A DNA stretch of 20,668 bases from a virus, in the IMG/VR virus record IMGVR_UViG_3300030099_004838, positions 1 to 20,668 of that record. One strand, written 5' to 3'. The notes under the pieces were generated by a model, which saw nothing but the letters and a program-made list of their open reading frames with translations, did no database searches and was not told where the DNA came from. Both the position numbers and the translations under genes were made by a program. Below are positions 1,873 through 15,635 of the stretch, in pieces. Numbering within the stretch: position 1 is the stretch's first letter; every line of letters begins with the position of its first letter.

Positions 1873-2244
1873 ATGGGTCCAGAGGCTAAACTTTATCAAA
1901 ATCTTCGTAAATCTATACCGGAAATATCTTGGATTAGACTTGAAAATATTAGCTTACATGGCACTCCCGATCTATTGGGCTATAATAATTCTGGCCACTT
2001 TTTCACACTAGAACTAAAGACAACAAAGGGCAACAAGATACGATTCAGCCCACATCAAATTGCGTTCCATGAAAGGCACCCACAGAATACTTTTATCATG
2101 GTCCAGGCCCTTGGTCCTGGTACCATAAAACTTTTTGAGGGAAGGTATATCAATGACCTATTGAGGGAAGGTTTCAAGTTCCATGGAGCTTGTAGCTTGG
2201 AGCTTGACGCTTGTCGCTTGTATCTATCGAGGCTTGGAGCTTGA
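1873..2244 (+). CDS. VRR-NUC-type PD-(D/E)xK nuclease
   Basis: A 123-residue nuclease-like protein. The core is visible: an early Glu (E4), then LHGTPDLLGY with D33, a strand with LELKT (E47, K49), and HQIAF with Q62. This GxPDL...ELK...Q pattern is the VRR-NUC arrangement, whose members act on branched or structured DNA or in recombination and modification systems. The fold assignment is well supported; the substrate is unknown. The start has a weak ribosome site, and no in-frame ATG lies upstream before a stop. The last 20 residues (after about 104) are encoded by the GCTTGNN array, so the native C-terminus may have been replaced or extended by repeat growth. Confidence 0.8.
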   Translation: MGPEAKLYQNLRKSIPEISWIRLENISLHGTPDLLGYNNSGHFFTLELKTTKGNKIRFSPHQIAFHERHPQNTFIMVQALGPGTIKLFEGRYINDLLREGFKFHGACSLELDACRLYLSRLGA

Positions 2245-2299
2245 AGCTTGGCGCTTGTCGCTTGCAGCTTGTTGCTTGTCGCTTGCAGCTTGGGGCTTG
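2188..2299 (+). repeat. GCTTGNN heptad array, 15 units
   Basis: Fifteen exact GCTTG pentamers lie at strict 7-base spacing: five from 2188 to 2216 and ten from 2232 to 2295, with one 16-base break between the blocks. The two other bases of each heptad vary freely (TA, GA, AC, TC, GC, CA, TT, GG and others). An array with a fixed core and variable pair is unlike ordinary slippage repeats. It is read as the C-terminus of the + strand nuclease, and on the - strand as a repetitive tail (QAASDKQQAASDK). Related short arrays lie at 2964-2975 and 3118-3178. Confidence 0.9.
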
Positions 2300-2454
2300 A
2301 GGCCCGGACCAGGTCGCACGCCCTGAGACTCCGTCGAGTCGTCGTAGCTAATGGCCTGATCCGATTGTTGCTGGCCGCCCACTACTGGTTGGCGGGATTC
2401 TGCCAGCTTATTACGCTTGCGTAATTCTTTATAATATTTTGGGTGTCTCCACAT
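2224..2454 (-). CDS. Small protein with repeat-derived tail
   Basis: A 76-residue protein whose start lies one base after the stop of the Gp88-like gene, so it is probably coupled to it. The N-terminus (MWRHPKYYKELRKRNKLAE) looks like a real folded or basic helical segment. From about residue 52 it becomes low-complexity, with two seven-residue repeats (QAASDKQ, QAASDKR) that are the antisense reading of the GCTTGNN array. It ends 21 bases inside the opposing nuclease gene. The function is unknown. Confidence 0.55.
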   Translation of the reverse strand: MWRHPKYYKELRKRNKLAESRQPVVGGQQQSDQAISYDDSTESQGVRPGPGLKPQAASDKQQAASDKRQASSSKPR

Positions 2455-2455
2455 G

Positions 2456-3082
2456 TCAATGAGCCCAGTATGATATATTTTTTATTTCAGAATTCCAGCA
2501 CATTCTGCAGTCTCTGCATTCATTGTTTTGCTTAGGGGCTGGACAGCTGCGGGAGGTAGCGCCAAACCAGGGCTTGTCACCTGTGATCACGCTTGAGCTG
2601 TTGGGCCACGAATCAGGCGCCAGCTGGTCAACCATTGGCGCGCTAAATCGTATGACTAAATTTGTAGGCTTGTCCTTCAGGTGAGCTTTGATCCAGGCTT
2701 CTCTGGTCGGTAACCAGTGACGCTTGCCAGGTGTCAACCTGCATACAGCGTAGATCTTCTTTAAGTGATCTAAGTCCTGGACGTCTCCGCTGTCATGCCA
2801 TCGGAATACATCCGGCTTTTTACTGTTGATTAAGTGAGCCATAGCCTGAACCCATTGCGGGTCCTTGATGGCTGCCAGCCGCCTGTACTGTGCATCCTGG
2901 ACAACCTTAAAAACATAACAACCTTTGAGCGCATAACAATCATAACAGACTGAGCCCTTGACAGCTTGGAGCTTGCCGCCTGTCTTGCATTCCTTGGCAG
3001 GTAAACCAATTGACCAGCCAGGCATCTTTGAAGGCTTGGACAGCGAACCACCTATAATTTTTAATGCTGTTTCTGTTTTCAT
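2456..3082 (-). CDS. Gp88-like cysteine-rich phage protein
   Basis: A 208-residue protein resembling the Gp88 family of phage proteins, recognised from memory by the MPGWSIGLPAKEC start, CYDCYA, FRWHDSGD (93-100) and HWLPTRE (122-128). It has two Cys clusters: C32, C46, C49, C55, and a C-terminal C180-x8-C189-x2-C192-x2-C195. These suggest a bound metal or iron-sulfur centre; that is inference and the family's reaction is unknown to me. The start is fixed by ATG at 3082 and a promoter-like sequence immediately upstream. The local DNA is richer in GC and in Trp, Arg and Cys codons than the neighbouring + strand genes, which hints at separate acquisition. Confidence 0.75.
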   Translation of the reverse strand: MKTETALKIIGGSLSKPSKMPGWSIGLPAKECKTGGKLQAVKGSVCYDCYALKGCYVFKVVQDAQYRRLAAIKDPQWVQAMAHLINSKKPDVFRWHDSGDVQDLDHLKKIYAVCRLTPGKRHWLPTREAWIKAHLKDKPTNLVIRFSAPMVDQLAPDSWPNSSSVITGDKPWFGATSRSCPAPKQNNECRDCRMCWNSEIKNISYWAH

Positions 3083-5545: not shown

Positions 5546-7027
5546 ATGAATGTAAATAAAGTAGACATAAACAAACTTCCATCAGACGTAAGAAAAACAT
5601 TTAAACAAATGCAAGTCCTGCTTGCAGAAAAAAAGGTACAGTCAAAAGCAAAAAGTGACTTTCTATCTTTTGTAAAATGTGTGTGGCCAGAATTTGTAGA
5701 GGGGTCCCACCACAGGCACATAGCAGAAAAATTTAATAAACTAGCATCAGGTGAAATAAATCGTTTGATAATAAATATGCCACCAAGGCATACTAAATCA
5801 GAGTTTGCGTCGTACCTTTTGCCAGCATGGATGGTGGGCCGTAATCCAAAGTTAAAAATTATACAAGCAACTCACACTGGTGAACTAGCCATTCGTTTTG
5901 GTCGTAAGGCTAAGAATTTAATTGACTCTGAAGATTATCACAAGATATTTCAAACAAGACTGCAAGAAGATAGTAAAGCCGCTGGTAGGTGGGAAACAGC
6001 ACAAGGTGGCGAATACTTCGCAGCAGGTGTCGGCGGTGCCATCACCGGACGGGGTGCTGACTTACTAATCATTGACGATCCACACAGTGAGCAAGACGCT
6101 ATGTCACCAAATGCTATGGAGTCTGCTTACGAGTGGTACACGTCAGGTCCACGTCAACGTTTACAACCAGGAGCAAAAATCGTTTTGGTTATGACACGTT
6201 GGTCTACAAAAGATTTGACAGGTATGCTTCTTGCAAATCAAAAAGAAGCAAAAGCTGATCAATGGCACGTGGTCGAGTTTCCAGCAATCATGGACCAAGG
6301 ATCAAAGCCCAAGCCTGTATGGCCTGAGTATTGGAAACTAGAAGAACTTGAGAAAGTAAAAGCAACATTACCAACTTCAAAATGGAATGCACAGTGGATG
6401 CAAGAACCAACAAGTGAAGAAGGTGCAATACTTAAACGAGAATGGTGGATGAAGTATGATTCAGATGATATACCACCGCTTTATCACGTCATACAAAGCT
6501 ACGACACAGCATTTTTAAAAAAGGAGACAGCCGATTACAGTGCAATAACGACATGGGGTTTGTGGTATCCAGAAGAAGATGGACCACCACAACTCCTGTT
6601 ATTGGACGCTATTAAAGGCAGATATGAGTTTCCAGAGTTAAGAAGAATGGCTTTAGAGCAATATTCTTATTGGAAACCGGAGACAGTTATAGTAGAATCA
6701 AAGGCATCAGGTTTACCTTTGACGTACGAGTTAAGGCAAATGGATATACCAGTTGTTAACTTTACACCGAGCAAAGGAAATGATAAACATGCAAGAGTGA
6801 ATGCATGCGCACCACTTTTTGAGTCTGGAATGATATGGGCGCCAGATCAAAAGTTTGCCGAGGAAGTAATCGAGGAGTGTGCTGCATTTCCATTTGGAGA
6901 TCATGACGACTATGTCGATTCAACGACACAAGCGATCATGCGATTTAGGCAGGGCGGGTTATTACAACACCCGGAAGATTACGTAACAGAAAACAAAGCA
7001 AACGCTCGTAAAAGGAATTATTATTAA
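5546..7027 (+). CDS. terL: Terminase large subunit
   Basis: A 493-residue packaging motor. The ATPase half has a variant Walker A (PPRHTKSE, 79-86), Walker B (LLIIDDP, 173-179) and the TRWS coupling motif (217-220). The C-terminal nuclease half is RNase H-like with acidic residues D320 (QSYDTAF), E384 (VESKASG) and D455 (HDDYVDS). It cuts concatemeric DNA and drives it through the portal into the prohead, guided by TerS. Length and motif order are normal for the family. The start is unusual: an A6T6A6T6 tract with no ribosome site lies immediately before the ATG. The stop overlaps the next start as TAATG. Confidence 0.97.
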   Translation: MNVNKVDINKLPSDVRKTFKQMQVLLAEKKVQSKAKSDFLSFVKCVWPEFVEGSHHRHIAEKFNKLASGEINRLIINMPPRHTKSEFASYLLPAWMVGRNPKLKIIQATHTGELAIRFGRKAKNLIDSEDYHKIFQTRLQEDSKAAGRWETAQGGEYFAAGVGGAITGRGADLLIIDDPHSEQDAMSPNAMESAYEWYTSGPRQRLQPGAKIVLVMTRWSTKDLTGMLLANQKEAKADQWHVVEFPAIMDQGSKPKPVWPEYWKLEELEKVKATLPTSKWNAQWMQEPTSEEGAILKREWWMKYDSDDIPPLYHVIQSYDTAFLKKETADYSAITTWGLWYPEEDGPPQLLLLDAIKGRYEFPELRRMALEQYSYWKPETVIVESKASGLPLTYELRQMDIPVVNFTPSKGNDKHARVNACAPLFESGMIWAPDQKFAEEVIEECAAFPFGDHDDYVDSTTQAIMRFRQGGLLQHPEDYVTENKANARKRNYY

Positions 7028-8235
7028 TGACACCGATCATTAGAAAATTTGTAATCAAACTCTTGTCCAAGGACCAAGGTTCAGGGATCACGAAACTACC
7101 AGGACAGATGCAAGCAGGCTTTCAAGAGTCTATGGTCATAGATAAATTAGTTCGTAGTGGTTACGATCCAAGAATTATAAAATCAGAATCAGAATTAAAA
7201 ATGATTCTAAATAGAATCGATGCTAGCAAAAAACAAACCAAAGAACAAAAAGATAAAGCTATGAAACAGCTAGCAACTATTATGGACATGAAGGGTAGAA
7301 AAATAAAACCGGGAGCAAAAATCATGGGTGGTGAGGAAGTGGTAGAAACAGAAGCAGAGATTTTAGAAAGATTAAAACGAGGCAACAAAGAAACGGTTGA
7401 AAGAATCAAAGAGAAAAAGCTTACAGAAAGTTTTGATCCCGATATGGACGATGCAATCGATAATGTATCACCTGGATTCTCTGGTGATATGAAAGTAGAC
7501 GCAGAACTTGTTGCAGAAGAGTTAGCTGGTAGAGCCGGTAAAGTTTATGATGACTTAGATATCAGAGAGCGAATGACGTTTTATGATAAAGCATACAAAG
7601 GATTATCTGAAAAGAGATTTGACAAACCAGATCCCGATGACTTTGCAGATGGTGGTCGTGCAGGTTTTATGGCTGGTGGTATGGGACGTAGAGCATTTTT
7701 AAAATTAATGGGTGGAGCTGGCGCAGGTATTGCAGCCCTTAAAACAGGATTGATCAATGTATTCAAACCAAGATCACAAACTGCTGAAGCAGTTGTAGAA
7801 ACAGTAACTAAAACAGATGCAATGGGAGTGCCAGAACACTTTGCACCATTAGTAAATAAAATTATGAAAGAAGGTAAGTTAACAAAAGAATCAGATAGAA
7901 TTCAAACATACAATCACCCAACAAGAAAAGATTTAGAATTAGATTATGAAATGGATACTGGTAGTGTGGGTGTAAGATTTGAAACAGACAAAGGTATGCC
8001 CGGAGATTATTATTTAAGAAAAAATCCACCAGATGAGGGAGCACCACGTGGTGGACCAGATGAATTTATTGAAGGTGAGATGGTATACAAAGCTTATCCT
8101 GATGGGTCTTATACAAAAGGTTTTGAAGAAGGTATTGAAACTGGCACATCAAACCTTGACGAATTTGTTGGCATTAAGAAAAATGTAAAACAAGATTTTG
8201 CTAGCGGTGGTATTGCTAGAATGTTAGGGGAATAA
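7027..8235 (+). CDS. Unknown protein with DGGRAGF, RRxFLK and GGIARMLGE motifs
   Basis: A 402-residue protein coupled to terL and to the next gene by TAATG overlaps. The N-terminal half is charged and helical. At 207-214 comes ADGGRAGF, then GRRAFLKLMGGAGAG (220-234) and a hydrophobic helix to about 243. That sequence is close to a twin-arginine (RRxFLK) signal but lies internally. The C-terminal half is probably globular (residues 265-385), and the last residues are ASGGIARMLGE. I have seen these motifs, from memory, in uncharacterised proteins of uncultured marine phages. Lying between terL and portal suggests a virion or head-interior role, but no function is established. Confidence 0.85.
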   Translation: MTPIIRKFVIKLLSKDQGSGITKLPGQMQAGFQESMVIDKLVRSGYDPRIIKSESELKMILNRIDASKKQTKEQKDKAMKQLATIMDMKGRKIKPGAKIMGGEEVVETEAEILERLKRGNKETVERIKEKKLTESFDPDMDDAIDNVSPGFSGDMKVDAELVAEELAGRAGKVYDDLDIRERMTFYDKAYKGLSEKRFDKPDPDDFADGGRAGFMAGGMGRRAFLKLMGGAGAGIAALKTGLINVFKPRSQTAEAVVETVTKTDAMGVPEHFAPLVNKIMKEGKLTKESDRIQTYNHPTRKDLELDYEMDTGSVGVRFETDKGMPGDYYLRKNPPDEGAPRGGPDEFIEGEMVYKAYPDGSYTKGFEEGIETGTSNLDEFVGIKKNVKQDFASGGIARMLGE

Positions 8236-10634
8236 TGGACAGAATAGATGAAATATTATTTCTCTACGAAGATGATGTAGTAGAGATGGCAGATGGTGGA
8301 CGAATACTATTAGGTGATGGTGGCTTTGTACAAAAACAAATTGATGAAATTAACAGATTAATTAGAGACACAGATTTAAATCAATCTGACATTGCTGAAG
8401 CTGTTAACAAAAAATTTCCTAAAGAAAAACCTTTAAAGAATTATAACGTCACTCATTACGCAAAAAAATATTTTGGCGTTAAAACACCAAAATATAAACC
8501 TGGTGTTAGTGTAGCTGGTGTTTTGACACCCGCTTATAAAAAAAGATTTACGTTTAAAGAAAGAAAAGGAAAACTTTTAACAGACATTTTAGAAAAAGAA
8601 GATTTAGTAGAATCAATTAAAACAGACGTCGCAAATAAATTAACAAAAGAACAGATAGTAGATAAATATAGAATTGGTGGAAAAGGAGAAAAACTTTTAC
8701 CATCTGGTGTAAAACAAATTGGAAAAGGCACACTAGAAGAAATTTATGAGAAACTAGACATAGTTAGAGGTAGAGCAGATTTAAGAAAAGTAGATATCAA
8801 CACACCAGAAAATAAAAAAAATTTAAAAAATATAAAAAAATTTTTTAGCGATGCCAAACTTTCAAGAGCTGAAGCTTATGATAAAACTGGTTTATCTCGA
8901 GGTCAGGTAGATAAATTACTTGCAAGATATAAACAACAAAAAGGAGAACCTTTAATTGTAAATAGAAAAACACTAGGAGTGCAGTTTGAAGGTGCTGGAC
9001 AAGAAAGAAATGTTTTTAAACAAAAGACAAAAGAACTACAAAGATTTCAAACGTTTTTAAAAAAATATAAAAACAAACCACTACGAAGTGGAACTGTTGA
9101 ATTAGCAAAAGCAATTAAAAAATTTGGTACAAACCCCGTTGGTTTTCAACAAAACCTCTCAATGTTGAGAAGAATATACAAAGGTCAAGAACGTCCTGGT
9201 TTTAAAATTGATAATGAGTTAAAATCAATAATAGGTAAGTTTCCAATCTCAACAGCATTAACTGGAGATGTGTTAATAGAAGCAGGATACACTCCAAAAC
9301 AAATCGATAAATTAAATAAAGCTCAAGCGATAATTAGAAAACTAGATGCAAATCAAGGTTCTTTTTTAAATCAACTAGAACACAAAGTTCCAAAAGCTGT
9401 TGCTTCTGAATTATTAAACAAAGGTCAAATTAGTAAATCACAGTACAGAGATATTATAGGAAAAATAACTCCAGTGACTACTGATCTTAATCAATGGAAA
9501 AAACAATACGACCTACAAAGATTAATGAATGTAAAAAATTATTTAGCCTCAAATATGGAAGCAGATGATTTAAAAAAATTTAATAAAATAGAAAACGATA
9601 TAATTAAAACAGCTAAAAAAATTTCTGGAGGATATGATATTGGAAAAATAAATATTGATGCTAACAACAAAATAACTTTACAATCCCCCGATGAAGTGTT
9701 TACCGCAAAGAGTAAAGGTATAGGAACAGGATCACGTTCGTTAATAGATTACTATAAAAATATAAAATACCACAACATACTTGCTAAAAAATATAACGCA
9801 AATAAAGGTGACGCTGCGTTTGGAACTTTGAGATCATATAGAGCTGGAGCCGACGTACCTATTTTTGATGAAAAAATTACTAATGAAATTTCTAAATTAT
9901 CTTCGTCCGAAGATTTTACAAAATACTTAACTAAAAATACTGATGGTCCTTTGTTCAAAGGACTTACAAAATTAGTTAGTCCTCAAATGAGACGTAAACT
10001 TTTAAGCGCAGGAAAAATTGGAGGAGCAGCAACTTTAGCAACTTTGATTCCTAGCATGTTGTTAGCAAGAACACCGGACGGCACAGAGGCTAGAAGTATT
10101 TTACCTGAAGTGGCAGGAGGAGCTGCAGCAGGATCACTTGCATTTAAACCTGTACGACAAGCTGTAGGTAAAGGATTAAAAGCTACAGGAAGATTATTAA
10201 GTAAATTTGCAGTTCCAATTGGTATTGGTGCTGAAGCATACTTTGCAAAACAAGCATACGATGAAGGTAAATCAATTCCTGAAATTATGGCTGCACCATT
10301 TTTATTAGAAGGTAAAGTTAGAAAAGCACAAGATCTATTGTCTATGAGCCCTGAAGAAAGACAAGCGGTCAACAGAGCTTCAAGAGAAGATGACATATCA
10401 GGATTAAGTTCTGACTTTGATACACCAAGATTAGAAGGTGTTGATGAAGTTGACATAGAAGAAGTTTTAAAAAGAGTTCAAAAAAAAAGAATGGCTGATG
10501 AGGCTAGACGAAGAGAAGAGCGAAAAGCAGGTGGTGGTATAGCTGGAATACGTAAGCCAGATGCAATTCCACCAGAATCAGGACCTAACCCACAAGGGTT
10601 GGAAAACTTGAAATATTATGTTACAAATACATAG
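8235..10634 (+). CDS. Large Lys-rich protein, possible internal virion protein
   Basis: A 799-residue protein, strongly Lys/Asn-rich and AT-rich. ADGGRILLGDGG lies at 19-30. The first half has several helix-turn-helix-like segments (LNQSDIAEAVNKKF about 48-61; LTKEQIVDKYRIG about 136-148; LSRAEAYDKTGLSRGQVDKLL about 209-229; AGYTPKQIDKLN about 350-361) and LEHKVPK at 381-387, which recalls HNH-type nucleases but is not enough to call one. Hydrophobic glycine-rich segments follow (IGGAATLATLIPSMLLA, then FAVPIGIGAEAYFA). The end carries AGGGIAGIRKPDAIPPESGP. Domains of this kind could suit an ejected DNA- and membrane-contacting protein; this is inference. The start is coupled to the previous gene, with AGGGG upstream. 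Confidence 0.85.
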   Translation: MDRIDEILFLYEDDVVEMADGGRILLGDGGFVQKQIDEINRLIRDTDLNQSDIAEAVNKKFPKEKPLKNYNVTHYAKKYFGVKTPKYKPGVSVAGVLTPAYKKRFTFKERKGKLLTDILEKEDLVESIKTDVANKLTKEQIVDKYRIGGKGEKLLPSGVKQIGKGTLEEIYEKLDIVRGRADLRKVDINTPENKKNLKNIKKFFSDAKLSRAEAYDKTGLSRGQVDKLLARYKQQKGEPLIVNRKTLGVQFEGAGQERNVFKQKTKELQRFQTFLKKYKNKPLRSGTVELAKAIKKFGTNPVGFQQNLSMLRRIYKGQERPGFKIDNELKSIIGKFPISTALTGDVLIEAGYTPKQIDKLNKAQAIIRKLDANQGSFLNQLEHKVPKAVASELLNKGQISKSQYRDIIGKITPVTTDLNQWKKQYDLQRLMNVKNYLASNMEADDLKKFNKIENDIIKTAKKISGGYDIGKINIDANNKITLQSPDEVFTAKSKGIGTGSRSLIDYYKNIKYHNILAKKYNANKGDAAFGTLRSYRAGADVPIFDEKITNEISKLSSSEDFTKYLTKNTDGPLFKGLTKLVSPQMRRKLLSAGKIGGAATLATLIPSMLLARTPDGTEARSILPEVAGGAAAGSLAFKPVRQAVGKGLKATGRLLSKFAVPIGIGAEAYFAKQAYDEGKSIPEIMAAPFLLEGKVRKAQDLLSMSPEERQAVNRASREDDISGLSSDFDTPRLEGVDEVDIEEVLKRVQKKRMADEARRREERKAGGGIAGIRKPDAIPPESGPNPQGLENLKYYVTNT

Positions 10635-10642
10635 GAGTATAA

Positions 10643-13141
10643 ATGGCAGATATAGATAAAGGACTCCCTAGTAACACAAGAACAAAACTCGATATTCCAA
10701 CAGATGAGGAGATCGAAGAAGTTAGTGTTAAAGAGGAGGAAGTAGAAAAAGGACCTGTAGAGGTCACAGCAGAAGAAGACGGCGGCGCAACGATTGACTT
10801 TGAACCGGGAGCTATAAATATACCTGGAACAGAAAACCATTTTGATAACCTAGCAGATATTTTACCTGATGATATTTTACAACCTATCGGTAATGACATG
10901 GTTGGTGATTACAATGATTACAAAGCATCTAGAAAAGAATGGGAGCAAAGTTATCGTGATGGTTTAGATCTATTAGGATTTAAATATCAAGATAGATCAG
11001 AACCCTTTCAAGGTGCATCTGGTGCAACACACCCCGTACTAGCAGAAGCTGTTACACAATTTCAAGCGCAAGCTTACAAAGAATTACTACCAGGTGATGG
11101 TCCTGTAAGAACACAAGTTGTTGGAGTGCAAACACCAGCACATGATTTACAGGCACAAAGAGTAAAAGATTATATGAACTATCTTGTCATGGACGAGATG
11201 GAAGAATACGAACCAGAGTTCGATTCTATGTTATTTCATTTACCATTAGCTGGATCAACATTTAAAAAAATTTATTATGACCAAACAATGGGACGAGCTG
11301 TATCTAAGTTTGTTCCAGCAGATGAATTAGTTGTACCGTACACAGCTACCTCATTAGATGATGCACAGTCAATAATTCATGTCATAAAAATGCCAGAGAA
11401 CGAATTGCGTAAACAACAAGTTTCTGGCTTTTACCGTGATGTAGATTTAGGACCTCCGGGCCGGGTTGAAACAAACCCCGTTGTTAAAAAAGAACGTGAG
11501 CTGGAAGGGACTAAAGCTACAGGTAAACCACAAGCGATTTATACTTTACTTGAATGTCATGTTAATCTTGACCTTGAAGGTTTTGAGGAAGTAGGAGCAG
11601 ACGGTCAACCGACTGGTATTAAACTTCCCTACATCGTAACTATCGATGAAAGTACCCGAACAGTTCTTTCTATCAGAAGGAACTATGCGCCCGATGATCC
11701 GAAGAAAGATAAAATCCAATACTTTGTCCACTTCAAATTTCTGCCAGGACTAGGATTTTATGGTTTCGGACTCATTCACATGATTGGCGGATTGAGCAGA
11801 ACGGCAACGTCTGCTCTCCGTCAATTATTAGATGCAGGAACATTATCAAACTTGCCAGCAGGTTTTAAACAGAGAGGTGTTAGAGTACAAGACGAAGCAG
11901 CTCCAATACAACCAGGTGAGTTTAAAGATGTTGATGCACCGGGTGGATCATTGCGAGATGCATTCTTTCCATTACCATACAAAGAACCATCTCCAACATT
12001 ATTACAATTATTAGGTATTGTTGTACAAGCTGGTCAAAGATTCGCGAGCATTGCAGAAATGCAAGTTGGTGATGGTAATCAAAGTGCAGCAGTTGGAACT
12101 ACGATTGCATTATTAGAACGTGGTTCACGTGTAATGTCAGCGATACATAAAAGATTGTACGCTGCAATGAAAAAAGAATTTAGATTACTTGCAAATATTG
12201 TATCAAAATATCTACCACCAGAATATCCATACGACGTTGTTGGTGGTGCAAGAACAATCAAACAATTAGATTTTGATGACAGAGTAGATATTATTCCTGT
12301 TGCAGATCCAAATATATTTTCTATGTCGCAAAGAATCACTCTTGCGCAAACAGAATTACAACTTGCAACAGCAAATCCTGGAATGCACAACATGTATAAT
12401 ATTTATAGAAACATGTATGAAGCAATTGGTGTAAAAAATATTGATTCAATATTACCACCACCTGCTCCTAACGCACCAAAAGACCCTGCGTTAGAAAATA
12501 TTGATGCATTAGGTGGTAAACCTTTTCAAGCTTTCCCTGGTCAAGACCACAGAGCACACATAACTTCTCATCTAAACTTTATGGCAACGAACATGGTTAG
12601 AAATAATCCACCAGTTATGGCTGCGTTACAAAAAAATATACTAGAACACATTAGTTTGATGGCTCAAGAACAGATTCAACTAGAATTTAGAGAGCAATTA
12701 CAAACAATGCAGATGCTACAACAGCAAGCACCAATGAATCCACAAGCTGCAAACGAGTTACAAGTCATGTCACAAGCAGTTGAAGCACGAAAAGCTGTGT
12801 TGATTGCTGAAATGACAGAAGATTTTATGAAAGAAGAGAAGAAAATTACCTCTACTTTTGACAATGACCCGTTATTAAAACTAAAATCACGTGAAGTTGA
12901 CCTAAGAGCGATGGAAAATGAGCGTAAAAAACAATATGATGACGAAAGAATCAATATTGATAAAGCAAAACTGGTTCAAGATAGAGATTTAACAGAAGAT
13001 AAGCTAGAACAGAACGAAGAATTAGCAGAATTAAGAGCAAATACTTCGTTAACAAAGCAAGCTATGTCTCAAGCCGGCAAAATGGAGAACGATTTGATGA
13101 AAATGGCTGATGTTAAGATCTTGAAAGGACCAAAAAGATAA
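10643..13141 (+). CDS. Portal protein, P22-like
   Basis: An 832-residue portal-type protein. After an acidic N-terminal region (about 1-55) comes the segment RSEPFQGASGATHPVLAEAV (119-138), typical of large portals of P22-like podoviruses and related marine phages. The GSTFKKIYYD region and a helical middle follow, and the C-terminal 150 residues are Gln-rich and coiled-coil-like (FREQLQTMQMLQQQAPM). The portal forms the ring through which TerL packs DNA and nucleates head assembly. AGGAG lies 7 bases before the ATG. Its place after terL and before the head genes fits. The size suggests a podovirus-like virion, but tail genes lie outside the window. Confidence 0.9.
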   Translation: MADIDKGLPSNTRTKLDIPTDEEIEEVSVKEEEVEKGPVEVTAEEDGGATIDFEPGAINIPGTENHFDNLADILPDDILQPIGNDMVGDYNDYKASRKEWEQSYRDGLDLLGFKYQDRSEPFQGASGATHPVLAEAVTQFQAQAYKELLPGDGPVRTQVVGVQTPAHDLQAQRVKDYMNYLVMDEMEEYEPEFDSMLFHLPLAGSTFKKIYYDQTMGRAVSKFVPADELVVPYTATSLDDAQSIIHVIKMPENELRKQQVSGFYRDVDLGPPGRVETNPVVKKERELEGTKATGKPQAIYTLLECHVNLDLEGFEEVGADGQPTGIKLPYIVTIDESTRTVLSIRRNYAPDDPKKDKIQYFVHFKFLPGLGFYGFGLIHMIGGLSRTATSALRQLLDAGTLSNLPAGFKQRGVRVQDEAAPIQPGEFKDVDAPGGSLRDAFFPLPYKEPSPTLLQLLGIVVQAGQRFASIAEMQVGDGNQSAAVGTTIALLERGSRVMSAIHKRLYAAMKKEFRLLANIVSKYLPPEYPYDVVGGARTIKQLDFDDRVDIIPVADPNIFSMSQRITLAQTELQLATANPGMHNMYNIYRNMYEAIGVKNIDSILPPPAPNAPKDPALENIDALGGKPFQAFPGQDHRAHITSHLNFMATNMVRNNPPVMAALQKNILEHISLMAQEQIQLEFREQLQTMQMLQQQAPMNPQAANELQVMSQAVEARKAVLIAEMTEDFMKEEKKITSTFDNDPLLKLKSREVDLRAMENERKKQYDDERINIDKAKLVQDRDLTEDKLEQNEELAELRANTSLTKQAMSQAGKMENDLMKMADVKILKGPKR

Positions 13142-13158
13142 TATAAGGTAAAAACATT

Positions 13159-13338
13159 ATGATGAACTATAAAAAAGCTAAGCAAATGTCTATTCCTAGC
13201 CAAAATCTTGAGTATGATCCAAGAAGTAAGGCTGACGTTAAGAGAGCAAGAAACGTTATCCCTACAGGAGACAAAGAAAAGGTTAGAGGTACGAAAAGAA
13301 TGCTAGCTAACAAAGATAAAACAGCAACTTGGTACTAA
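13159..13338 (+). CDS. 59-residue basic protein
   Basis: A short frame with AAGG before the ATG (a second ATG follows immediately). It begins MMNYKKAKQMSIPSQNLEYD and ends with NKDKTATWY. Lys and Arg dominate, and it probably lacks a stable fold by itself. It fills the gap between portal and the holin-like gene with only a few bases to either side. The layout and the regular codon texture support it. I recall similar short proteins after portals in marine phages, with no known function. Confidence 0.65.
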   Translation: MMNYKKAKQMSIPSQNLEYDPRSKADVKRARNVIPTGDKEKVRGTKRMLANKDKTATWY

Positions 13339-13341
13339 ATC

Positions 13342-13737
13342 ATGTGGTTATCGGCAATTAAACTAGCCGTTTCTGCAGGAAGTAAGATTTATGCCAACAA
13401 GCAGAGAACGAAAATGGCAATGTCTGATGCACAATTAATGCATGCAGAACGTATGGCCAAAGGTGAGGAACAATACCAGGGCAAATTGTTAGAGGCCCGT
13501 CAATCAGACTGGAAAGACGAAGCCGTCCTCATAATACTAAGTTTGCCCGTGGTGGTGCTCGCTTGGGCAGTCATATCGGATGACCCATCTGCGATGGACA
13601 AAGTAAAATTGTTCTTCGAGATGTTCTCCCAGCTCCCGTCATGGTTCACAAACTTGTGGATCCTTGTAGTTGCGAGTATTTATGGTATAAAGGGAACGCA
13701 AATTTTTAGAAACGGAGGAAATAAAAATGGCAAATAG
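13342..13737 (+). CDS. Holin-like membrane protein
   Basis: A 131-residue protein with an amphipathic N-terminal segment, a charged middle (ARQSDWKDE) and two strong membrane helices, about 61-79 (LIILSLPVVVLAWAVI) and 102-118 (FTNLWILVVASIYGIKG), with a short acidic loop between. The arrangement resembles the small holin family found in gene transfer agents and marine phages. A holin would permeabilise the inner membrane at lysis, but no endolysin lies nearby, so a structural membrane role remains possible. The ATG follows the previous stop by three bases. Its end overlaps the next gene by 11 bases. Confidence 0.65.
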   Translation: MWLSAIKLAVSAGSKIYANKQRTKMAMSDAQLMHAERMAKGEEQYQGKLLEARQSDWKDEAVLIILSLPVVVLAWAVISDDPSAMDKVKLFFEMFSQLPSWFTNLWILVVASIYGIKGTQIFRNGGNKNGK

Positions 13738-14158
13738 AAGGTTTAACACACAAGTTGCACAGCCAAGAAAGGCTCTTGCAAAAGGTGGTAAAGCATTAAA
13801 AGCTGTAGATAAAGAAAAAAATCCAGGTCTTGCTAAACTACCAACTAAAGTCAGAAACAAAATGGGCTTTATGAAAAAAGGTGGCAGAGTCAAAAAAATG
13901 GGCGGTGGAATGTCTACTGCTAGAAAAGATATGATGTCTGGTTACTACAAAAATGACATGGGTATGAAAGGTGGCAAGATGTTTAAAGACGGTGGCAAAG
14001 TTGGAAAAAAACAACAAGGCTACAAAGATAGAAAAGATGAATCAATCGCTATGAGAGTTAAAAAGAAAAGAACTGCTAAACAATTAAAAGCTAGCAGAGA
14101 TGAGTCTTATGGTAAGTTTGGTTCTAAAGCTAAGAAGTCTGGAAAAATAAATAGGTAA
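13727..14158 (+). CDS. Very basic Gly/Lys-rich protein
   Basis: A 143-residue protein with a good GGAGG site about 7 bases before the ATG. About a third of residues are Lys or Arg. Two motif blocks stand out: KKGGRVKKMGGG (50-61) and FKDGGKVGKK (86-95), which share the glycine-pair theme of the long proteins at 7027 and 8235. There is no hydrophobic core, so it is probably disordered unless bound to DNA or RNA. It may coat or neutralise packaged DNA; that is inference. It is the first of a run of basic genes. Confidence 0.75.
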   Translation: MANRRFNTQVAQPRKALAKGGKALKAVDKEKNPGLAKLPTKVRNKMGFMKKGGRVKKMGGGMSTARKDMMSGYYKNDMGMKGGKMFKDGGKVGKKQQGYKDRKDESIAMRVKKKRTAKQLKASRDESYGKFGSKAKKSGKINR

Positions 14159-14162
14159 TAAC

Positions 14163-14615
14163 ATGGCCGTATTAAAAGGTATTGGCGTAGCTGTAAAAGG
14201 TTTTGGTAAAGCTTTAAAACGTGCTGCTAGCAAAAAAGCTGGAACTATAAAAAGTGTAAAACCAGCTACAAGATTGTCAGAGCGAAGAAAGACTTTTGAG
14301 TCAGCCATTAAAACTTTAGATAAAGCTAAAAAAGGTGCTTCTCCTGAAACTCAAATGAGAATGAAATCAAGGACGCAACCTCACGTAAAAGATTTAAGTA
14401 AAATTCAAGACACCTATGACAAGAAAATAAAAAAAATAGGTTCTAGAGACAGAAAACTTAAACGTAAAGCTATTGGCGCTGGAGCAGCAGCCGCTACTGG
14501 ATCTTTAGTTGCACACGGAGCTGCTAAAAAGAAATTTCCAAAATACAAAAAAGTTATGGAATCTGATGTTGTTATTAAAGATGGTAAACTAGGATTAAAG
14601 GAAAGAAAAAAATAG
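14163..14615 (+). CDS. Basic protein with Ala/Gly-rich helix
   Basis: A 150-residue, strongly basic protein. It begins with a Lys-rich amphipathic helix (VLKGIGVAVKGFGKALKRAA), has a charged middle, and from about 103 to 121 carries a short Ala/Gly hydrophobic segment (AIGAGAAAATGSLVAHGAA), perhaps membrane-contacting. The end is DVVIKDGKLGLKERKK. AGGTAA precedes the ATG. The final TAG overlaps a GTG start as TAGTG. The family is not known to me; a virion-interior or membrane role is inference. Confidence 0.7.
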   Translation: MAVLKGIGVAVKGFGKALKRAASKKAGTIKSVKPATRLSERRKTFESAIKTLDKAKKGASPETQMRMKSRTQPHVKDLSKIQDTYDKKIKKIGSRDRKLKRKAIGAGAAAATGSLVAHGAAKKKFPKYKKVMESDVVIKDGKLGLKERKK

Positions 14616-14752
14616 TGCCATTAACATCTAAAGGTAAAAAAATAATGAAGTCAATGAAGAAACAGTATGGAGCTAAAAAAGGTGAAACTGTTTTCTATGC
14701 ATCGAAGAATAAAGGTGCTATAAAAGGTGTAGACAAGAAAAGGAAAAAATAA
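14615..14752 (+). CDS. 45-residue basic protein with GTG start
   Basis: A short gene starting at GTG in a TAGTG overlap. The peptide begins MPLTSKGKKIMKSMKKQYG and includes KKGETVFYASKNKGAIKGVD. I recognise this as a small conserved protein in many marine phages (pattern KKIM..MKK.YG..KGE.VFYAS.NKG.IKGV). Function is unknown. It is coupled at both ends: the stop TAA overlaps the next ATG. Confidence 0.7.
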   Translation: MPLTSKGKKIMKSMKKQYGAKKGETVFYASKNKGAIKGVDKKRKK

Positions 14753-14892
14753 TGTGGAACTGGATAAAAAATTTATTTACTCCGAAAAAACAAGTTGTAG
14801 TTTTACAAGAAGAAGTAAAACAAGAACACTGTCCGTCACATTTAAGATTTAGAAAAAGTTGTCCTGCATGCAAGGAGATTGTATATGGCTAG
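14752..14892 (+). CDS. 46-residue protein with a Cys cluster
   Basis: A short gene coupled to its neighbour by TAATG. It starts with an aromatic helix (MWNWIKNLFTPKK) and ends with HCPSHLRFRKSCPACKEIVYG, giving Cys27, Cys37, Cys40 and His26/His30, a likely metal site. The (C/D)xxHxRFRKSCPAC ending is familiar from small marine-phage proteins. The amphipathic Trp-rich start could touch membrane. The role is unknown. Confidence 0.7.
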   Translation: MWNWIKNLFTPKKQVVVLQEEVKQEHCPSHLRFRKSCPACKEIVYG

Positions 14893-15019
14893 ACCAGGTT
14901 TATACGCAAACATACACGCTAAAAGAAGACGAGGCGGAAAGATGCGAAAGAAGGGTGCAAAGGGTGCACCAACCGCAGCTAACTTTGCAAGGGCAAAACA
15001 AACAGCGAGGAAAAAATAA
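14885..15019 (+). CDS. 44-residue LYANIHAKR basic protein
   Basis: A short gene with GGAG 7 bases before the ATG, overlapping the previous stop by 8 bases. The peptide MARPGLYANIHAKRRR followed by KMRKKGAKGAPTAANF matches a tiny conserved marine-phage protein (LYANIH.KR...G.KMRK.G.KGAPT). It is almost entirely basic and small residues. Similar peptides are common near head genes, so it may be packed with DNA, but this has not been shown to my knowledge. Confidence 0.75.
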   Translation: MARPGLYANIHAKRRRGGKMRKKGAKGAPTAANFARAKQTARKK

Positions 15020-15231
15020 TGGCAAAACTATGTCCTAAAGGTAAAGCCGCAGCAAAAAGAAAATTCAAGGTATATCCATCAGCATACGCTAATATGTACG
15101 CTTCTGCAGTTTGTTCTGGTAAAGTAACACCAGGTGGTAAAAAAAGACAAAAGAAAGCTGACGGAGGTTTTGTTGCTAAAGGATGTGGTGCTGTCATGTC
15201 TGATAGAAAGAAAAGAACAAGGATGGTCTAA
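15019..15231 (+). CDS. Small conserved basic Cys protein
   Basis: A 70-residue protein starting in a TAATG overlap. It carries the block AKLCPKGKAAAKRKFKVYPS, then AYANMYASAVCSGK, and the motif KKADGGFVAKGCGAVM (45-60). I recognise AKxKFKVYPSAYAN as widespread in marine phages and some larger viruses, function unknown. Four Cys residues suggest metal binding or disulfides. The DGGF motif links it to the glycine-pair proteins. Confidence 0.8.
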   Translation: MAKLCPKGKAAAKRKFKVYPSAYANMYASAVCSGKVTPGGKKRQKKADGGFVAKGCGAVMSDRKKRTRMV

Positions 15232-15635
15232 TGGCCGAAAAAGGTTTACGTTCATGGGTAAAGGAAAATTGGGTCGATATTGCGAACAAAAAATCGGATG
15301 GCTCATACCCGAAGTGTGGAAGAAGTGGTGGAGAAAAAAGAAAAAATTATCCAAAATGCGTGCCCATTGCAAAAGCAAGAGCGATGTCCAAAGGGCAGCG
15401 TGCGGGTGCCGTAAGAAGAAAACAAGCGAAATCAAATACTGGCCCGACACCGAGTAGAGCCGCAACATTTGCACCAAAAAGAAAAAGAGCTGCAAGTGGT
15501 GGATCAATTGGTGATAAAATGATTAGAGAGGCACAAAGAAATTATAAAGGAAGTTATATATCTGGTGACTTGGGTGGAGTAAAAGTATCTAACCCTAGTT
15601 TAGTTAAATATTATGGGAATAAGATAAAACCATGA
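15231..15635 (+). CDS. DUF5872-like basic protein
   Basis: A 134-residue protein whose first 70 residues match what I recall as DUF5872: KGLRSWVKENWVDIANK, then SYPKCGRSGGEKRKNYPKC and PIAKARAMSKGQRAGAVRRK. The family occurs in phages and large DNA viruses and its role is not known to me. The C-terminal 60 residues differ and include RAASGGSIGDKM (86-97), another double-glycine site, and a Tyr-rich end. Two Cys at CG and KC, spaced 14 apart, could bind metal. The gene overlaps both neighbours by a few bases (TAATG before, ATGA after). Confidence 0.8.
   Translation: MAEKGLRSWVKENWVDIANKKSDGSYPKCGRSGGEKRKNYPKCVPIAKARAMSKGQRAGAVRRKQAKSNTGPTPSRAATFAPKRKRAASGGSIGDKMIREAQRNYKGSYISGDLGGVKVSNPSLVKYYGNKIKP

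Follow-up and report, generated by a model that had tools for sequence, protein, structure and literature searches.

The window, meaning the whole stretch of DNA that was analysed, is a virus fragment of 20.7 kb assigned to the HTVC023P-type pelagiphage group. Among cultured phages, Pelagibacter phage HTVC027P is the closest to it (portal 64.7% identity), followed by 023Pt_psg01 and HTVC023P. The host of these cultured relatives is SAR11, which is among the most abundant bacteria in the ocean. In the window, terS lies on the minus strand. The terL gene (5546-7027) is directly followed by gene A (7027..8235, plus strand; 402 amino acids). Gene B (8235..10634, plus strand; 799 amino acids) comes next and lies directly 5' of an SU10-type portal gene (10643-13141). 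Downstream of the portal are several small basic genes as well as GroES, a scaffold-like gene, and the gene for the major capsid protein. A separate feature of the fragment is the stretch 2001-3000, which has a GC content of 0.50 compared with about 0.37 in its flanks and holds an ORF with repeated QAASDK-like sequence; it is possibly an acquired stretch.

The counterparts of gene A, gene B, and the portal gene in HTVC027P are gp41, gp42, and gp43. Gene A is modular and of unknown family, and gene B has conserved ends around an exchangeable body. Profile searches gave neither gene a Pfam, PHROG, or NCBIfam assignment. The publications on HTVC027P transcription and on HTVC023P-type genomes do not discuss gp41 or gp42 in the text examined; RNA-seq data for HTVC027P exist (PMC12753301). 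A string search of the literature found no mention of the glycine-pair motif strings described below, and no virion proteome of HTVC023P-type phages was found there.

A first-pass annotation of the window had noticed that several otherwise unrelated proteins from terL to the capsid gene carry short blocks built around a glycine pair, and had suggested a common signal. All of the glycine-pair peptides that it quoted are found in the genes that it named. Their enrichment was measured in the window and three related complete genomes, using the motif [AKE][DNSTG]GG[RIFLVM] and within-protein shuffles. Between terL and GroES, 11 motifs occur compared with 1.8 in the shuffles, a six-fold excess that none of 1000 shuffles reaches. 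Before terL the count is near chance (2 compared with 1.0), and after GroES it is below chance (5 compared with 7.2). In the same four genomes, plain GG is enriched just 1.4-fold between terL and GroES, and to the same degree after GroES, so it is the block-like motif that is specifically enriched.

A larger set of loci was chosen by portal similarity alone, without reference to the motif, and scanned with the broader pattern [AKED][DNSTGA]GG[RILVMF]. The genes between terL and portal contain 146 motifs in 44,874 residues, and 73 of the 92 proteins are positive. Composition-matched shuffles of these genes give a mean of 14.3 and a maximum of 25 (50 shuffles), so that the enrichment is approximately ten-fold and the recurrence is real. 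It is not matched in the other genes of these loci: the motif is absent from terL (0/30 proteins) and from genes upstream of terL (0/64), and is found in 18/235 proteins downstream of the portal. Portal proteins themselves carry it in 24 of 52 cases, one copy each. The outcomes that the first-pass annotation had named as speaking against its idea, namely a motif just as frequent in non-virion proteins or no excess over shuffled sequence, were therefore not seen.

Gene A ends in the tag ASGGIARMLGE (8200..8232, plus strand). Across 17 gene A homologs (alignment A4), residues A392, G394, G395, and A397 are invariant. A Gly pair falls within the last 16 residues of 71 of the 87 non-redundant genes directly 3' of terL, compared with 1/150 terL and 4/171 portal control ORFs; the recurrence at protein ends proposed earlier therefore holds. 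Among these 71 genes, 45 end in GG...[MIL]LG[EVRQ], and the consensus of the gene A tag is GG-[LIV]-x-x-[MIL]-L-[GE]-[EV]. Other genes after terL end in GGLAKILEV or GGxATMFxxKR. The A-type end is retained in HTVC027P gp41 as GGLPHILGV. A protease site at the MLGE tag is rejected, since the tag runs up to the stop codon and leaves nothing for cleavage to release. Gene A has a second, internal block, ADGGRAGF (7645..7668, plus strand), which belongs to the ADGGR[IVM]GF-like blocks and falls in a segment of pLDDT below 50.

Gene B homologs keep their N- and C-terminal stretches while their middles are unrelated. Near the N-terminus is the glycine-pair block ADGGRILLGDGG (8289..8324, plus strand), within residues 1-30 of pLDDT below 50; a double-glycine leader at this terminus was considered by eye only and not adopted. 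The C-terminal tail, AGGGIAGIRKPDAIPPESGPNPQGLENLKYYVTNT (10527..10631, plus strand), contains the core motif PPESGPNPQGL (10569..10601, plus strand). In 47 tail-bearing proteins the mean column identity is 13%, and only the Gly pair and PP..GP..QGL are invariant columns; as these sequences were selected via their PPxxGPxxQG residues, only the tail Gly pair and the N-terminal Gly pair are independent observations. The latter, G21 and G22, is nearly invariant across the 47.

Together with the earlier loci, the pattern PPxxGP[ND][SP]QGL identifies at least 34 distinct large ORFs in which the motif lies 8-12 residues from the C-terminus, and among the matches listed the distance is exactly 10 residues in 29 of 34. 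Elsewhere the motif sits in small ORFs. The tail is either fused to a large gene or encoded as a separate small ORF beside the portal. HTVC027P (approximately 9889-10060 of its genome) has an unannotated small ORF, MTKYPKTWLLPPESGPTPQGLNINYNTVRTV..., between gp42 and gp43, which overlaps the former at its end and the latter at its start. Where a portal is on the contig, the motif lies 74-88 nt upstream of the portal start in 106 of 115 of the matches listed and downstream of the portal in 9. At the portal-selected loci the tail is present in 66/76, with degenerate forms in several more; it is missing from three of these loci and from psg01. When the proteins are compared in pairs (n=561, among the matches listed), 244 pairs have just the tail in common and 156 have nothing.

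In cellular genomes a convincing tail occurs on three contigs only, each carrying this portal type. They come from Pelagibacteraceae AG-422-I02, an actinobacterial MAG, and a Maricaulis MAG, which may point to a host range wider than SAR11 or to errors in binning. The tail is not a general cellular motif, as 30 of the 33 genome matches look like chance. A short-peptide tblastn search against cultured phages gave no match although HTVC027P has the motif, and that search is hence insensitive. Two types of C-terminal tag are tied to position in the genome, one after terL and one before the portal.

The tail codons overlap a promoter-like element, GGGTTG-N20-TACAAA (10596..10627, plus strand), which was found by profile and lies just 5' of the portal. 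At 72 non-redundant loci with the peptide upstream of the portal, GG[GC] is present in 71/72, TTG in 72/72, and TA in 72/72. Where the peptide lies elsewhere, the counts are 0/8, 1/8, and 1/8. The TA, 20 nt after TTG, is fixed whatever amino acid is encoded (ten residues, all with NNT codons). Similar sites occur 5' of two other HTVC027P genes and at the terS end of the window. A sigma-70-type promoter has TTGACA at -35 and TATAAT at -10, with a spacing of 16-18 nt. The GG[GC]TTG-N20-TA element resembles such a promoter in its spacing of 17 nt and its fixed TTG and TA, but position 6 of the -10 box is not T-rich, and a consensus promoter scan did not call the element. Base conservation at these loci indicates that the tail carries a second, DNA-level constraint on its Gly-Leu codons and the downstream bases.

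It could be argued that the tail is conserved only through promoter DNA serving the portal and late genes, with the peptide as a by-product, and the near-fixation of the element upstream of the portal and its near absence elsewhere fit this idea. As the sole cause it is nevertheless very improbable, because such a promoter accounts just for the Gly-Leu codons and the bases downstream. In the small-ORF class the codons of PP..GP.P vary synonymously at background level, and downstream of the portal the peptide persists without the DNA element. The tail codons of the 16 large ORFs vary less, as would be expected among closer relatives. In the large-ORF class the tail has been passed on along with a related portal region, and part of its conservation is therefore common descent.

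A search for the internal block ADGGR[IVM]GF as a context-free pattern gave at least 116 ORFs. Among the matches listed, 83 fall in the interval from terL to portal, 12 are gp82-like, and 17 are on contigs without an assignable place. The block recurs in genes A and B, in a small basic protein like that of gene 15019, and in the gp82-like protein. The gp82-like proteins (HTVC027P gp82 region and four further loci, L298, L361, L289, and L335) combine the block with a C-terminus of DDVPARLS... type, which matches tape-measure profiles weakly. In 7 of the 9 cases examined, the gene 3' of the gp82-like ORF has a match to the DNA ejection protein family phrog_4287, a weak one in one case.

In at least 111 non-redundant instances of ADGGR[IVM]GF, the diversity of synonymous codons at most positions is similar to that elsewhere in the ORF. 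The Arg codons are more diverse (1.99 bits against a background of 1.08), and those of the first Gly are less so (1.07 against 1.56). Codon diversity in this block and in the tail points to selection on the amino acids. This bears on a model in which the blocks have no binding function and serve as flexible linkers or as recombination boundaries for module exchange. Shared segments of unrelated gene B proteins do often start or stop near GG blocks, and modules move between genes A and B. A conserved DNA boundary should not have codons as diverse as background, and the codon test speaks against such a boundary as the sole cause of ADGGRxGF. A plain linker, in turn, would leave the Arg, Phe, and MLGE or PPxxGP residues unfixed. 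Linkers or boundaries are thus an improbable explanation.

The small basic genes downstream of the portal give a more mixed result. Gene 13727 contains KKGGRVKKMGGG (13874..13909, plus strand) in Lys/Gly-rich sequence, and this block is retained in relatives, as KVGGRVSKMGGG in HTVC027P gp47 and also in psg01. Its second block, FKDGGKVGKK (13982..14011, plus strand), has a similar GG in relatives and is a weak case. Gene 15019 contains KADGGFVAKG (15154..15183, plus strand). Its homologs at loci L285 and L306 have the full ADGGRVGF at the same place and read KKKADGGRVGFKNGG (also given as KKKNKKADGGRVGFKNGG), which supports this block. The block RAASGGSIGDKM of gene 15231 (15486..15521, plus strand) is unconserved, as HTVC027P gp48 has SKGSGESSMVKEAQ there; on this comparison it probably lies outside the signal. 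The idea of a common signal stands in part. The motif is shared at the protein level, as C-terminal anchoring, synonymous-codon diversity, absence from terL and the genes upstream of it, and the copy beside a DNA-ejection-family gene all support. Several tag types exist, though, and not all of the eight blocks first listed belong to one signal.

AlphaFold gives low-confidence models for both proteins, with a mean pLDDT of 51 (A) and 60 (B). The blocks and tags fall in segments of pLDDT below 50, mostly around 30, which are predicted to be disordered and in which the blocks look like short linear motifs. A Foldseek search with the low-confidence gene B model gave no match at E <= 0.001. The variable bodies show scattered weak HTH matches. 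Overall, the proteins are modular and evolve fast, and the blocks that they carry are short linear motifs at the protein level, in segments predicted to be disordered.

An example of this modularity is the internal Tat-like segment of gene A, M-G-R-R-A-F-L-K followed by a hydrophobic stretch (7681..7761, plus strand). M219, R221, R222, and K226 are invariant in the 17 homologs of alignment A4. This MxRRxFLK module lies in the middle of gene A in the window and begins a free-standing protein at loci L022-L024. In HTVC027P the same module is found near the C-terminus of gp42. Since gp42 holds the module and gp41 keeps the A-type end, modules move while the end tags stay with their position. Tat-like segments are preceded by GG within 30 residues in 42 of 49 cases. 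Tat signal models remain below threshold (12.2 compared with 16.7 bits; at best 17.2 compared with 22.7 bits).

These segments suggest two further models. In the first, the blocks serve for processing or as cleavable linkers, so that modules are freed from a polyprotein-like precursor, for example a Tat-like N-terminus after GGR. The position of the blocks in predicted-disordered segments between modules, the GG before most Tat-like segments, and the free-standing protein that starts with the module are as this model expects. On the other hand, the gene A tag terminates at a stop codon, and most residues of the tail and tags beyond GG are also conserved. The scan of window proteins found no gene for a prohead protease or other protease; the fragment is incomplete, and its scaffold-like genes are uncharacterised. 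Processing is therefore quite unlikely, and the protease site listed among the early suggestions is without positive support.

The second model assigns the proteins a role on the host side. Genes A and B would be late genes whose fast-evolving products stay out of the virion and act as effectors or in counter-defence, and the tags and Tat-like segments would route these products to the membrane or to another host machine. The variable bodies with their HTH matches and the Tat-like segments after GG can be read in this way, and A and B are known from genes alone. We regard this role as unlikely, given that the Tat models fall below their cut-offs, the same internal block occurs beside ejection-family genes, and the tags are tightly linked to portal position.

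The support for a common signal at the protein level makes a cargo or docking tag plausible. Our preferred reading, tentative and at a little under even confidence, is that the tags act as peptides for docking or loading, on modular proteins that are candidates for a place inside the virion or for ejection from it. The tags would be bound by a conserved head component, such as the portal, the inner capsid, or an ejection core. Unrelated bodies could then be exchanged while each tagged protein still enters the virion, and the loaded proteins might be delivered with the DNA. This docking reading draws on the enrichment, the invariant tail, the stop-anchored tag, the codon test, the low-pLDDT segments, the gp82-like copies, and the link to one portal type. 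Against it weigh the low-confidence models, the shared descent of the large-ORF tails, the promoter-like constraint, and the loci with no tail.

A stronger and rather doubtful form of the docking reading is that the interval between terL and portal in HTVC023P-type pelagiphages may be a cassette for interchangeable virion cargo, with one fixed C-terminal tag per gene position. If true, bodies would move from phage to phage and from one of the two genes to the other, with the tags loading each product into the head for delivery, a phage counterpart of encapsulin loading. A position-specific tag offers a sequence handle by which candidates for virion-internal or delivered proteins can be spotted in the genomes of marine phages. 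The tagged genes, which are assigned to no family, belong to phages whose cultured relatives infect SAR11.

Several known systems can be compared with these tags. Genes for MuF polymorphic toxins adjoin the portal and have an exchangeable body, and gene B likewise adjoins the portal with an exchangeable body. A scan of 47 tail-bearing members found no MuF domain and no Pfam match, so gene B is not assigned to this group. The GlyGly-CTERM sorting signal shares a Gly-Gly near the C-terminus. It too was rejected: there is no NCBIfam match, and the gene A tag, with 5-7 residues after GG, has no transmembrane helix and basic cluster. Phage DNA ejection proteins (phrog_4287; P22-type) are linked to the system by the ADGGR[IVM]GF block in the adjoining gene. 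Unlike them, A and B have no match to that family and are known here as genes.

The capsid-targeting sequence of T4 is an N-terminal signal of about 10 amino acids that is processed by the prohead protease and directs internal proteins into the head (PMC9958956). The tags are like it in their proposed role as a short signal for head entry. They differ in that the position-anchored tags are C-terminal and the other GG blocks internal, and in that the scan of window proteins found no prohead protease. Family 1 encapsulin cargo carries C-terminal targeting peptides, and the shell of encapsulins is built on the HK97 fold (PMC8346489). The present tags have a different consensus and belong to proteins that a phage encodes next to its portal, internal GG copies exist, and loading is what we infer from the genes. 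As the position differs from that in T4 and loading is deduced in this way, membership in either system is not claimed. The likeness to encapsulin cargo lies in a short C-terminal peptide borne by otherwise unrelated proteins, together with the HK97-fold capsid expected in this phage.
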